From Ralstonia pickettii (lineage in GTDB: Bacteria; Pseudomonadota; Gammaproteobacteria; Burkholderiales; Burkholderiaceae): DNA of 64,000 nt. Position 1 is the stretch's first letter, and each line of letters starts with the position of its first letter. The stretch covers positions 1 through 64,000 of the forward strand of contig NZ_MCGB01000020.1 in NCBI RefSeq assembly GCF_001699815.1. The letters run 5' to 3'. Made by a program: the position numbers and the translations under genes. This document shows, in pieces, positions 12,596 to 33,824 of this stretch. The notes beneath the pieces are model-generated. The model was not told the origin of the DNA and did no database searches. It was given only the letters and a program-made list of their open reading frames with translations.

Positions 12596-14107
12596 TTATT
12601 GGAAGAGCGTGTCCCACATGGCGTCGACCTTGGCCTTGACAGCGGTATCCATGACGATGGGCTGGCCCCATTCGCGCGTGGTTTCGCCGGGCCATTTGTT
12701 GGTGGCATCGATGCCCATCTTGGAGCCCAGGCCCGACACCGGGGACGCAAAATCGAGGTAATCGATCGGCGTGTTTTCGACCATGACCGTGTCGCGCGCC
12801 GGATCCACGCGAGTGGTGATCGCCCAGATCACTTCCTTCCAGTCGCGCAGGTTCACGTCGTCGTCCACCACGACGATGAACTTCGTATACATGAACTGCC
12901 GCAGGAAGCTCCACACGCCGAACATCACGCGCTTGGCGTGGCCGGCGTATTGCTTCTTCATGCTGACCAGCGCCATGCGATAGCTGCAGCCCTCGGGCGG
13001 CAGATAGAAATCGGCAATCTCCGGAAACTGCTTCTGCAGCAGCGGCACGAACACTTCATTGAGCGCCACGCCGAGCACGGCCGGCTCATCGGGCGGCTTG
13101 CCTGTGTACGTAGAGTGATAGATCGGGTCGCGGCGCATCGTGATGCGCTCGACCGTGAACACGGGAAACCAGTCCTGCTCGTTGTAATAGCCTGTGTGAT
13201 CGCCGAAGGGGCCTTCCAGCGCGTGTTGATAGCCGCTCGGGTGCGTCGGATCCGGCTGGATATGGCCTTCGAGGATGATTTCGGCGCCGGCCGGCACTTG
13301 CAGTTGCGCCTGCGCCAGCGAAGGCGTCAGGCATGTCGCAAGCTCAGTCCGGCTGCCGCGCAGCAGCCCCGCAAACTGGTACTCAGATAACGTATCCGGC
13401 ACCGGCGTCACCGCGCCGAGAATGGTGGCCGGATCCGCGCCCAGTGCCACCGCGATCGGAAACGGCTGGCCGGGATTGGCGATGGCGTGCTCGCGGAAAT
13501 CCAGCGCGCCGCCGCGGTGCGCCAGCCAGCGCATGATGACCTGGTTGCGATTGATGACCTGCTGCCGGTAGATGCCCAGATTCTGCCGTTTCTTATGCGG
13601 CCCGCGCGTGATGACCAGCCCCCAGGTGACGAGCGGAGCCGCATCGCCGGGCCAGCACGTCTGTACGGGAATGCGCGAGAGGTCGACGTCATTCCCTTCC
13701 CACACGATCTCCTGGCACGCCGGCGACGACACCTTGCGTGGCGCCATATCCCACACGGCCTTGGCCATCGTCCACAGCTTGCCGGCTTCACGCAGGCCGC
13801 GCGGCGGTTCAGGCTCTTTCAACGCCGAGAGCAGGCGACCGATGTCCCGCAGTTCATCGAGCGACTCCGCGCCCATGCCCAGCGCCACGCGACGTGTGGT
13901 GCCAAACAGGTTAGCCAGCACCGGCATGTCGTACTTCTGTGCGCCGTCCACCGGCTGCGCGAAGACTACCGCCGGGCCTTCGGAGCGCAGCAGGCGGTCA
14001 CAGACTTCGGTCATTTCCAGGCGCGGCGATACCGGCTGGTGCACGCGGCGCAGTTCGCCCGTGCGTTCGAGTTGGGCGAGAAAGTCACGTAAGTCCCTGT
14101 ATTGCAT
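12596..14107 (-). CDS. ubiD: UbiD family decarboxylase (3-octaprenyl-4-hydroxybenzoate carboxy-lyase)
   Basis: A 503-aa prenylated-FMN-dependent decarboxylase that removes the carboxyl group of the polyprenyl-hydroxybenzoate intermediate in ubiquinone synthesis. Family blocks are visible throughout: [10 protein letters not shown] at the N-terminus, [10 protein letters not shown] and MRWLAHRGG in the middle, and [11 protein letters not shown]. The catalytic region has the conserved Glu/Asp/Arg spread of UbiD. Length is normal and the start ATG has no rival. A TACAAT -10 on the minus strand (14214-14219) lies about 107 bp upstream. The 190 bp between that element and the next promoter hold no gene. 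Confidence 0.94.
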
Positions 14108-14328
14108 GGAGATTTTGTAACCAAAGGTAAGGTAGATCGCCTATCACGCGGAGGGGCTGTCCCCCGAATAGTCGTCCGGGCGACATTTTTTTGGTGTAGG
14201 CAGGGTGGCCGCGATTGTACGGCCAAAACCCCATGACCCCCTGATGACAGAACGCATCGCAGGTCAGCCAGTCCCAACAACGGGAGCTTTATCATAACTT
14301 TTGGATATGAAAACTTACTTCTTTATGA

Positions 14329-14357
14329 TTGACTTGGCATAACGCGCTTCCTACAAT
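14329..14357 (+). promoter_or_regulatory. Strong sigma-70 promoter for the leader and lytic transglycosylase
   Basis: TTGACT (14329-14334) and TACAAT (14352-14357) are 17 bp apart, five of six matches each. The 35 bp upstream are AT-rich and could act as an UP element. Initiation is expected near 14364, about 280 nt before the lytic transglycosylase ATG. Confidence 0.7.
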
Positions 14358-14363
14358 CCAATC

Positions 14364-14644
14364 CGATCTGGTAATTGTTGCAACGCAACATGTTTTCGGC
14401 TAATGCCTACGCCCCGTTCTCAAACGTATGAGGGGCGACACCAGAGCACATCAGCATCGCTGCGGGACGTGACCTCCCCAAGGACACGGCCCGCATTTCT
14501 CTGGGCACTAGGGGAGTGCCCCCAACAGATGCCGGCTGACTGCAACAGCGCGGCATCCTTACTAAAAACCGTTGCGATTCGAAACGCACGGCGCCAGGCA
14601 AAAGAAAGGCGTCTACCGGATCTGCGCAGCGGACGGAGGTAAGT
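14364..14644 (+). promoter_or_regulatory. Long, highly structured 5' leader, candidate structured RNA
   Basis: No open reading frame of note occupies this leader. Instead it contains successive helices. First is a three-way junction closed by TCTGGT/ACCAGA (14367-14372 with 14440-14445). It encloses TGTTGC-AAC-GCAACA (14376-14390) and CGCCC/GGGCG with CTCA/TGAG (14410-14437). Next is a long hairpin TGCGGG-A-CGTG-A-CCT against AGG-A-CACG-G-CCCGCA (14461-14495). Then come GGGCACT/AGTGCCC (14503-14521) and GATGCCGGCTG/CAGC-G-CGGCATC (14528-14557), followed by a weaker CCGT/ACGG hairpin. The loop of the second element (CTCCCC, 14474-14479) is complementary to GGGGAG (14511-14516) in the next hairpin. 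I could not match it to a known riboswitch by eye. Confidence 0.5.
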
Positions 14645-15832
14645 ATGAACGGTTGGAAAACCCTTCATTCTTCCGGGATCGGATCGGCGCTGCAACGCCG
14701 GCTCGTAGCCCCGGTTGGCCGCCGCCTCGCGCGTGCTGGTCAAGTTGCGCTGCCTCGTAAGCTGCGCATGGAGTTGAACGCAGGGGGCGCCGCCGCGTCC
14801 CGCAATGAGTTGCATCCTGGCGTACTGCTGGTGTTCCGCAGCGGGCATGTCGTGCTTAATAGCATCGGCTTGCTGGCGGTGGCCGCCGCAGTTGCGCTCT
14901 CGCTCAACAGCGAGTGGCGCGCCACGGTCGCTCAACGCGTGCTGCATTTCACGCCGGGTGTCGACACCAGTGTCGCCTCGGCCAATCCGTCGCCCGCGAT
15001 TGCGGCTGGCGTGCAGCCGGTTGCTTTCGCACCGACGGCGCCGTCCGCCGGTACGGGTGCCGCTCAAGCTGTAGCGCCTGCTGCGGCGCAGGGTGGCACG
15101 GTCGCGGCCGCAGGTTGGGACACGCTTTCGAAGGTGCCGTCCGTGGCCGAGTTGGCTGCGCAGATTCCGAACACGCAAGTCGTCCGTGACGCGCGTGAGT
15201 CGGCAACCGCCGGTACCCCGCGAGAGCAGGCTGCCGTGGCCGAATACATCGCCCGCAAGTACCGCGTGGCGGCCACTGCCACTGGCCAGTTGGTGAAGGC
15301 GGCCTATCAGACCGGCAAGGAAGTCGGCCTGGATCCGCTGCTCATCCTGGGCGTGATGGCCATCGAGTCCAGTTTCAACCCGTTCGCCGAAAGCGGTATG
15401 GGTGCGCAGGGTCTGATGCAGGTCATGACCAAGGTCCACCAGGACAAGTACGAAGTGATGGGCGGCGTTGGTGCTGCGCTCAATCCGTATGCCAACATCA
15501 AGGTCGGTGCGCTGGTGCTGAAGGATTGCATCGCGCGTGCAGGTTCGATCGAAGGCGGCCTGAAGCTGTATGTCGGGGCGGTCACGCAAGGCGACGGCGG
15601 CTACGGCGGCAAGGTGCTGCAAGAGCGGTCGCGCCTGCGCATGGTGGCCACTGGGCATCGTTCGCCCATGACGGTGGCGTCTGAGCGCGAACCGGTGAAG
15701 CCGGTCGCGACGGCAACGCCTGTGACGCAAGCCGATGCGAAGACGCAAGCCACCAAGCCGTCCGACAAGCAACCGGCGGCTGGTCAACAGGAAGAGGCAC
15801 GTCTGGACAATAAGTCGCAGGGCCAAGCCTGA
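14645..15832 (+). CDS. Membrane-anchored lytic transglycosylase, SLT domain
   Basis: A 395-aa protein with one transmembrane segment at about residues 69-88 and a periplasmic C-terminal part. The SLT domain (about 215-330) has the catalytic Glu241 in MAIESSFNPFAES, then GAQGLMQVM and a tyrosine-rich end. This marks a family 1 lytic transglycosylase that cleaves peptidoglycan to 1,6-anhydromuramic ends. A low-complexity Ala/Pro linker (about 100-160) separates anchor and enzyme, and the tail after residue 340 is Thr/Lys/Gln-rich. GGAGGTAAGT precedes the ATG. It is monocistronic, with a dedicated promoter, a long structured leader and a terminator. Confidence 0.9.
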   Translation: MNGWKTLHSSGIGSALQRRLVAPVGRRLARAGQVALPRKLRMELNAGGAAASRNELHPGVLLVFRSGHVVLNSIGLLAVAAAVALSLNSEWRATVAQRVLHFTPGVDTSVASANPSPAIAAGVQPVAFAPTAPSAGTGAAQAVAPAAAQGGTVAAAGWDTLSKVPSVAELAAQIPNTQVVRDARESATAGTPREQAAVAEYIARKYRVAATATGQLVKAAYQTGKEVGLDPLLILGVMAIESSFNPFAESGMGAQGLMQVMTKVHQDKYEVMGGVGAALNPYANIKVGALVLKDCIARAGSIEGGLKLYVGAVTQGDGGYGGKVLQERSRLRMVATGHRSPMTVASEREPVKPVATATPVTQADAKTQATKPSDKQPAAGQQEEARLDNKSQGQA

Positions 15833-18217: not shown

Positions 18218-19357
18218 TCAGTGTGTCGCGGTGGATGCAGAGGAAGTGACGTCGGGTGCATCTGCCATCGACTGGTACGCCGTCACCTCCAGATCGTAGC
18301 CGACCATGCTCGGCAGTTTGAGCGGCGAGGCCAGCACACGCATTTTGCCCACACCCACGTCCTTGAGGATTTGCGCGCCGATGCCGTAGATGCGCGGATC
18401 GGGTTTCGTACGCGGGCGCTCATGCGGCGCGTCCAGCGCGGAGAACTGCGTGAACAGCCGGTCCGCCGAATCGCCGCAATTGAGCAGCACGACCACGCCG
18501 GTCGGGGCAGCCTGGATGGCACGCAGGGCAGCGGGCACGCTCCACGAGTGCGTCGTGCGCTGGCACTCGAGCAGGTCCAGCACCGAGAGGGGTTCATGTA
18601 CGCGCACCAGCGTTTCGGTGTCCGGCGTCGGCGTGCCCTTGACCAGCGCCAGATGGGCGCGGCCGGCCGCCCGATCGCGGAAGGCGACGGCGTGGAACGT
18701 GCCGAACTGCGTCTCCATCGTGCGCTCGCCGACGCGCTCGACGATGCTCTCGGTGCGGCTGCGGTATTGGATCATGTCGGCAATCGTGCCGATCTTCAGG
18801 CCGTGTTTCTTGGCGAATTCCACGAGGTCCGGCAAGCGCGCCATGGTGCCGTCGTCCTTCAGGATCTCGCAGATTACGGCGGCGGGTGTCAGGCCCGCCA
18901 TGGCGGTCAGGTCGCAACCGGCTTCGGTGTGGCCGGCGCGCATCAGCACGCCGCCCTTCTGGGCCCGCAGCGGGAAGATGTGGCCCGGGTTCACCAGGTC
19001 AGACGGTTTGGCGTTCTTGGCGGCCGCCACCTGAATGGTGCGTGCGCGGTCGGCCGCGGAAATACCAGTGGTCACGCCTTCGGCCGCTTCGATCGATACG
19101 GTGAAATTGGTGCCGAACTGCGTACCGTTGCGGCTTGCCATCATCGGCAGGTCGAGCTGGTCGCAGTGCTCTTCGGTGAGCGTCAGGCACACCAGGCCAC
19201 GCGCGTGCGTGACCATGAAGTTGATGGCTTCCGGCGTGACAAAGTCGCTCGCCAGGATCAGGTCGCCTTCGTTCTCACGGTCTTCCTCGTCGACCAGGAT
19301 GACCATGCGGCCGGCGCGGATTTCGGCAATGATTTCTTCGACTGTGGCGATCGACAT
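18218..19357 (-). CDS. ribB: 3,4-dihydroxy-2-butanone 4-phosphate synthase with degenerate GTP cyclohydrolase II domain
   Basis: A 379-aa two-domain protein. The N-terminal domain (1 to about 205) is an intact DHBP synthase: DEEDRENEGDL at 23-33 and GHTEAGCDL carry the metal and substrate residues. It makes the four-carbon unit of riboflavin from ribulose 5-phosphate. The C-terminal domain resembles GTP cyclohydrolase II but lacks its zinc-binding cysteines (the SLRCDCG block of RibA) and the GDVFGS-type active-site run. It should therefore be inactive, a RibBX-type architecture. A functional ribA must then lie elsewhere. The ATG at 19357 gives the usual MSIATVEEII start. A TACAAT -10 candidate lies 87 bp upstream (19444-19449). 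No FMN riboswitch is evident. Confidence 0.93.
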   Translation of the reverse strand: MSIATVEEIIAEIRAGRMVILVDEEDRENEGDLILASDFVTPEAINFMVTHARGLVCLTLTEEHCDQLDLPMMASRNGTQFGTNFTVSIEAAEGVTTGISAADRARTIQVAAAKNAKPSDLVNPGHIFPLRAQKGGVLMRAGHTEAGCDLTAMAGLTPAAVICEILKDDGTMARLPDLVEFAKKHGLKIGTIADMIQYRSRTESIVERVGERTMETQFGTFHAVAFRDRAAGRAHLALVKGTPTPDTETLVRVHEPLSVLDLLECQRTTHSWSVPAALRAIQAAPTGVVVLLNCGDSADRLFTQFSALDAPHERPRTKPDPRIYGIGAQILKDVGVGKMRVLASPLKLPSMVGYDLEVTAYQSMADAPDVTSSASTATH

Positions 19358-19484
19358 GGCGTAGCAGGGGTGCGCGCCGCCGGTCAACTCCCGTCAATCG
19401 GTGATTTCGGGGGCCGTGCGACTGCGTAGATGGGAAGCCTGCTATTGTACGCCAAGGCGGCCCCAAGCCAGTGGGGCCAATGGT

Positions 19485-33424: not shown

Positions 33425-33824
33425 GGCGAGTGTCTGGTCTGAAACGAAACGGAAATGGCAGAGATCGGGCGAGGCGTGGGGAAACATGCGCGCGGCTTGA
33501 ACGACTGCGCTCGGCGTTAGCCGATTGCAGAGGTGTCCGAGTCACCCTGTGCTTCCCATTCGCTGCCCAGGCGAGCGGCAGGCGCCGTTGTGCATGACGC
33601 CAGAAACCTTGCGCTTCCTCGTGGTCGCTGCCCACATGTCGAAGCCGCTGAAGCGGCTTCAGGATTCGCCAGTCGCGCAAGGTGGAATGGTTGTTCGCGA
33701 GTGTACGACAGCCCCATGGCCGCCGCAAGAAGCGGGCGTGCAGACACGCACATTGCGGTGCAATAAGGCACAAGGCTTCAGGTAAACTCTGATCTTTCGC
33801 ATTTTCAGGTCCGGAGACACTTTC
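33425..33824. other. Intergenic region between glyA and ydfG-type gene
   Basis: Four hundred bases hold the divergent promoters. I see no gene; the short open frames here have no family features. Present are a 20-bp palindromic element GAAGCCGCT-GA-AGCGGCTTC (33641-33660) and a TAAACT -10 candidate just before the ydfG-type gene (33783-33788). The rest is unexplained. Confidence 0.5.

Follow-up and report, generated by a model that had tools for sequence, protein, structure and literature searches.

The 64,000-nucleotide window of Ralstonia pickettii DNA analyzed here (assembly GCF_001699815.1, contig NZ_MCGB01000020.1) carries a gene for a lytic transglycosylase, a divergent ubiD neighbor and, between them, a promoter and a long untranslated leader (Table 1). 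Lytic transglycosylases need restraint, and to our knowledge the tuning of single members of this group is poorly known. The transglycosylase gene product reaches no NCBIfam equivalog above its cut-off. The promoter, which an earlier note on this DNA had proposed, was found where the note placed it and matches the consensus at 10 of 12 positions; promoter-like sites number 2 in 1.5 kb compared with 0.3 in shuffled sequences. The arrangement TTGAC-17-TACAAT recurs in 51 of 52 homologous leaders, and the remaining one (L077) reads TTGACT..TAAAAT. A further conserved block is present between ubiD and the leader promoter (14196-14260) in 10 aligned Ralstonia loci; on the minus strand it contains TACAAT and, judged by eye, may hold the ubiD promoter. 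Elsewhere in the window, Rfam searches returned a ZMP/ZTP riboswitch on the minus strand (33558-33686, 53.7 bits) and a borderline V_AS9 match on the plus strand (19157-19260, 50.8 bits against a cut-off of 50). The latter is antisense to a ribBA-like ORF (18218-19387) and probably reflects coding conservation or chance.

Table 1. Features of the ubiD-transglycosylase locus (window coordinates).
Feature	Position	Strand	Details
ubiD, divergent syntenic neighbor upstream	12596..14107	-	Pfam UbiD 8.1e-76
Sigma-70-like promoter TTGACT-17-TACAAT	14329..14357	+	TTGACT 14329-14334, 17-nt spacer, TACAAT 14352-14357
Leader, ~281 nt, promoter-inferred transcription start to base preceding ATG	14364..14644	+	fold z -3.55
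Closed 5' junction, aligned in Ralstonia only	14367..14445	+	helices 14367-14372/14440-14445, 14376-14390, 14410-14437
P3 hairpin, CCCC in loop	14461..14495	+	both sides changed in 7/12 counted pairs
P4 hairpin, GGGG in loop	14503..14521	+	both sides changed in 3/6 counted pairs; 100% paired
P5 hairpin	14528..14557	+	both sides changed in 4/11 counted pairs
CUUACU, P6 5' strand (anti-Shine-Dalgarno)	14558..14563	+	same in 52/52 leaders; no covariation
P7, variable stem within P6	14569..14632	+	predicted fold
GGUAAG, P6 3' strand	14638..14643	+	over end of Shine-Dalgarno GGAGG (14635-14639) and spacer
P8, start-codon hairpin in coding region	14645..14668	+	mean pairing of halves 0.87, 0.95; frozen codons
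Lytic transglycosylase gene, 395 aa	14645..15832	+	Pfam SLT 1.4e-14

The predicted fold of the leader has a free energy of -110.2 kcal/mol, compared with a shuffle mean of -92.8 kcal/mol, and only 1 of 200 shuffles equals it; with 24 coding bases added, the values are -117.5 kcal/mol and z -3.90, equaled by 0 of 100 shuffles. The dense architecture that the earlier note had described is borne out: this fold contains the closed junction at the 5' end, the 7-bp and 11-bp hairpins and the 13-bp hairpin interrupted by two mismatches. The 5' junction, however, aligns only within Ralstonia, where two of its pairs have both sides changed; Cupriavidus retains the first hairpin and differs in sequence beyond it. 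The note also missed the most conserved parts, namely the CUUACU and GGUAAG strands and the start-codon hairpin. Its proposed contact between the loops CTCCCC (14474-14479) and GGGGAG (14511-14516) is correctly placed, and the two loops are complementary. Both the CCCC and the GGGGAG loops are unchanged in all 40 rows of our alignment A1, so loop-loop covariation is absent, and the CCCC loop is missing from L077, which belongs to a third genus. The predicted P3-P4 loop pairing is thus plausible but not proven.

When 61 genomes were searched at the DNA level, the leader was present in 16 of 16 Ralstonia genomes, 15 of them in addition to the window's own at 91-98% identity; among 45 other genera, two matched, over only 36-57 bases round the ribosome-binding site. 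Use of an 18-mer from the gene start retrieved 61 stretches, of which 53 are named in their records as Ralstonia, Cupriavidus or 'Burkholderiaceae bacterium PBA' and the other eight come from scattered organisms, about the 7-8 estimated by chance. The 16 Ralstonia leaders all agree at 79% of their positions, compared with 59% in codons 9-395 of the gene and 25% at the third positions of those codons. P5, the anti-Shine-Dalgarno strand and 14630-14668 are 100% invariant, and the 14403-14445 part of the 5' junction is 53% invariant. A covariance-model search of 299 family genomes gave 61 with a match at E <= 0.05, of which 55 are strong (E <= 1e-24) and comprise 16 Ralstonia and 39 Cupriavidus genomes with one strong match each; 40 of the 52 leaders went into building model R1 and match it by construction. 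The strong match lies directly upstream of the transglycosylase gene on the same strand in 54 of the 55. In the last (G189), leader and gene are on separate contigs, and the leader contig reaches into the gene start. The PBA leader (L077) was missed by this family search under its stricter filters and was found by R1 with filters off at E = 3.4e-7 in 41 kb. Matches away from the gene were far weaker (best G167, E = 1.1e-5; others E >= 0.0015), and the extra matches in G167, G072 and G013, inspected by eye, have no anti-Shine-Dalgarno or start like those of the leader. Among 399 genomes of the order, the window's own and two Cupriavidus genomes match at E <= 0.001, and no others.

The resulting set of 52 leaders comprises 16 from Ralstonia, 35 from the 39 Cupriavidus genomes and L077; G064, G159, G189 and G195 fall outside it, L095 (a short contig end) was left out and identical sequences were collapsed. 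Alignment A1 holds 40 distinct leaders and extends from P3 to past the anti-Shine-Dalgarno strand; L077 was left out of A1 and A2, and L092 out of A3. In A1, 95.4% of paired cells are able to pair, and 14 of the 29 pairs of P3-P5 have changes on both sides. Cells with both sides changed number 92; shuffles give 30.7 (sd 6.0), and controls with slid pairing give 2-23. The compensatory changes that the earlier note had called for in homologous leaders are therefore present, and also occur within Ralstonia, where variation is low (both sides changed in 3 of 85 pairs). P5 of L077 reads GACAC/GUGUC where the others have GAUGC/GCAUC. Taken together, these sequence comparisons give good support for a real, conserved and covarying structured cis-RNA upstream of the transglycosylase gene.

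CUUACU, located right after P5, is complementary to the GGUAAG of the Shine-Dalgarno and spacer, and the resulting P6 and the coding-region hairpin P8 are both part of the minimum free energy (MFE) structure of the window RNA. P6 is present in seven of seven local folds from three genera, and P6 and P8 together in consensus folds built from 14, 34 and 48 rows; P8 is absent from the local MFE of L077. In full-length ensembles at 37 °C, the mean probability of P6 is 0.25, exceeding 0.5 in 10 of 52 leaders. Neither helix has compensatory changes in Ralstonia or Cupriavidus, where 98.3% of their cells are paired, equal to shuffles. P8 has the sequence AUGRR-Y-GGUU-GGAA-AACC-C-UUCAU with the AUG at its foot, and the AUG is predicted to be about 10% unpaired at 37 °C in the 52 leaders. 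Codon usage is frozen at this hairpin: among invariant residues of 30 genes, all 5 sites within codons 3-8 use a single codon, compared with 10 of 126 past codon 12 (p = 1e-5, uncorrected for relatedness). These predictions suggest that the Shine-Dalgarno and the start codon may be closed by default through P6 and P8. A longer P6, in which CAU would pair with the start codon, was rejected, since the letters at that place are UGU or CGU in L077 and in some leaders of Cupriavidus.

Our best reading, to which we assign a probability of about 0.63, is that the leader is a gene-specific cis-regulatory RNA that restrains translation initiation. The leader would fold into P3, P4 and P5, the CUUACU strand past P5 would form P6 by pairing to the spacer and the adjoining end of the Shine-Dalgarno, and the start codon would form the foot of P8. 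With both helices paired, ribosome access would therefore be low by default, and an input on P3-P5, whether a small molecule, a protein, a small RNA or an RNase cut, would alter it. We infer in this scheme that P6/P8 provide the restraint, that P3-P5 do the sensing and that transcription starts from the promoter in Table 1.

The earlier note had left the choice among a riboswitch, a structured cis-RNA and an independent small RNA. Conservation and covariation favor the structured cis-RNA, and the small RNA has become the less likely option. A metabolite or ion riboswitch, with P3-P4-P5 and the P3-P4 loop contact as aptamer and P6/P8 as expression platform, would account for the compact covarying core, the invariant loops and the coupling to Shine-Dalgarno occlusion. 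We nonetheless consider this identity unlikely, given a single target gene, a single strong copy in each genome, no Rfam class and the absence of the loop contact from L077. Somewhat more doubtful still is a role as a small RNA source or in dosage control by RNA processing, as proposed for the BTH_s13 RNA of Burkholderia thailandensis. A simpler scan picks out hairpin 14376-14390, the first of the leader and trailed by T-rich sequence, as terminator-like, and BTH_s13 species do precede an SLT gene (PMC4035088). The flagged hairpin, however, has only 3 GC pairs, the anti-Shine-Dalgarno and the frozen start-codon hairpin point to translation instead, and a loose scan for intrinsic terminators, run without a shuffle control, passes none of the 16 Ralstonia leaders and 10 of the 35 from Cupriavidus (10 of 51 in all). 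In the Cupriavidus leaders L043, L044, L070 and L073, that scan also passes P3 itself, behind which comes UUUCU (14461-14500 in the window); P3 could be a terminator that is weak or has decayed. We discarded antitermination at P3 by means of the GGGGAG loop, since this loop is synthesized only once P3 has been made.

The pairing of both the Shine-Dalgarno and the AUG in the default predicted fold would also suit an RNA thermometer, yet warming from 25 to 42 °C takes the predicted mean AUG opening no further than from 0.05 to 0.13, while Shine-Dalgarno opening stays at 0.32-0.33 and mean P6 rises over the same range. Together with the length of the leader and its covarying core upstream, these predictions disfavor a simple thermometer, which we regard as very improbable. 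We find it harder still to credit repression by CsrA/RsmA through GGA in the P4 loop, the P8 loop and the Shine-Dalgarno: the aligned leaders do have GGA in both loops and in the Shine-Dalgarno, but PF02599 is absent from the window's own genome (0 of 1; 99.99% complete) in a search whose control was positive in 3 of 14 genomes including Escherichia coli, so CsrA control is not supported for this genome. Equally hard to credit is translational coupling from an upstream ORF (14403-14642) whose stop overlaps the Shine-Dalgarno. This ORF of 79 codons exists in the window, but it has no Pfam match, 4 of 16 Ralstonia leaders lack an in-frame ATG/GTG start and the frame is open for at most 27 codons in 28 of 35 Cupriavidus leaders; we rejected it as a translated ORF on account of these missing starts and short frames.

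Having set out these alternatives, we return to a cis-regulatory leader of the transglycosylase gene and to its counterparts in other genera. No Rfam family or riboswitch class, ydaO included, matches the window leader, and a known Rfam class is accordingly rejected. The earlier note's statement that no class matches is thus true of the leader sequence in Rfam, but the leader of the syntenic gene in Burkholderia relatives is overlapped by RF02422 (Bp1_738, Burkholderia sRNA) and is very probably the published BTH_s13. Among 17 loci in other genera, one has a short partial match to the leader sequence motifs and the remaining 16 contain none of them. RF02422 matches all 17 of these sister loci upstream of the gene, 13 of them above its gathering score. 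Among 120 family genomes, 59 from nine genera match RF02422 at E <= 0.001 (50 over its cut-off), and these 59 include none from Ralstonia, Cupriavidus or PBA. RF02422 has no match in the window at its 45-bit cut-off, and its sole hit to the Ralstonia/Cupriavidus leaders scores 23 bits (E 0.25), near the promoter of L055.

As in the window, the sister leaders are flanked by ubiD and the SLT gene and have a like promoter. Judged by eye, the ORF upstream resembles UbiD in all six cases inspected, and the sister gene begins M[NS]xW, as in the window, in 13 of 17; the four loci of genus g11 begin otherwise and were left out of the sister alignment and the sister-helix test. Read on the gene strand, RF02422 starts at the like promoter and ends in a stem followed by T-rich sequence. 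A terminator-like stem is present in 12 of 13 sister leaders, 11 at the end of RF02422 (loose scan, no shuffle control), and downstream of it come a hairpin, a P5-like hairpin and a helix to the stretch preceding the ribosome-binding site. For this P6-like helix, partners from the same leader average -17.3 kcal/mol compared with -11.4 kcal/mol across leaders, and 0 of 20,000 permutations are as good (13 leaders, hand-chosen segments, relatedness uncorrected). The helix from the post-P5 strand to the ribosome-binding region covaries in these 13 leaders, whereas the strands of its candidate counterpart, P6, are invariant in Ralstonia and Cupriavidus. Neither model R1 in the 17 sister loci nor model R2 in 21 Ralstonia, Cupriavidus and PBA loci matched convincingly where a leader would be expected. 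Homology of the RNA cores is therefore unproven; neighbor, gene and promoter type are common to both leader types, and their P5-P6 layouts are alike. Our leader is probably the Ralstonia/Cupriavidus form of one leader that this gene keeps across the Burkholderiaceae.

PMC4035088 describes BTH_s13 as the 5'UTR RNA of the SLT gene BTH_I1527, with species of 209-400 nt that begin before the gene and run into it; its authors put forward dosage control at the post-transcriptional level and name a riboswitch as one option. The sister leader overlapped by RF02422 would be the BTH_s13 counterpart. The RF02422 model strand is opposite to the gene in all 17 loci and in all 28 genomes in which both positions were compared (e.g. 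L078:1155-1362). Because BTH_s13 species, as described there, extend into the gene, RF02422 probably models the strand complementary to the functional transcript.

Across a bacterial family, then, the gene keeps its neighbor and promoter type, and the leader RNA differs between genera. This combination offers a natural test of how leader RNAs shift between transcriptional and translational output, with the present leader as an orphan sensor candidate. A bolder proposal, which we hold only tentatively and consider unlikely, is that these leaders form a new Burkholderiaceae class of sensor RNA linking cell-wall or envelope state to the transglycosylase, with an output rewired from a terminator in Burkholderia relatives to occlusion of the Shine-Dalgarno and start codon, partly by the gene's own codons, in Ralstonia and Cupriavidus. 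We found no report of the leader in Ralstonia or Cupriavidus in the literature searched, which lay largely outside subscription journals. What is new is the Ralstonia/Cupriavidus form, absent from Rfam; the leader of the syntenic Burkholderia gene is already partly described.

Among known systems, the c-di-AMP (ydaO) riboswitch precedes cell-wall hydrolases. The leader resembles ydaO and translational riboswitches in its hydrolase target and in an upstream folded domain coupled to control of the ribosome site, and it differs from them in having no Rfam match. The YjbJ motif (WRC-39-1), described as a weak candidate riboswitch upstream of a predicted lytic transglycosylase gene in Streptococcus (PMC11109978), is likewise a structured RNA close to the Shine-Dalgarno, but it has two hairpins and belongs to another phylum. 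In platinum-adapted Cupriavidus, a lytic transglycosylase that may or may not be the gene of this leader is induced 36-fold (PMC6357080). Like RF02422, the leader lies between ubiD and the same transglycosylase gene and includes a like promoter; RF02422 differs in leaving the Ralstonia and Cupriavidus leaders unmatched and in being modeled opposite to the gene strand. A close parallel by description is BTH_s13, whose presumed sister kin have a terminator-like hairpin and a different core, but which shares with our leader a similar length, a divergent gene upstream, an SLT gene downstream, conservation above that of the gene and a proposed post-transcriptional control.
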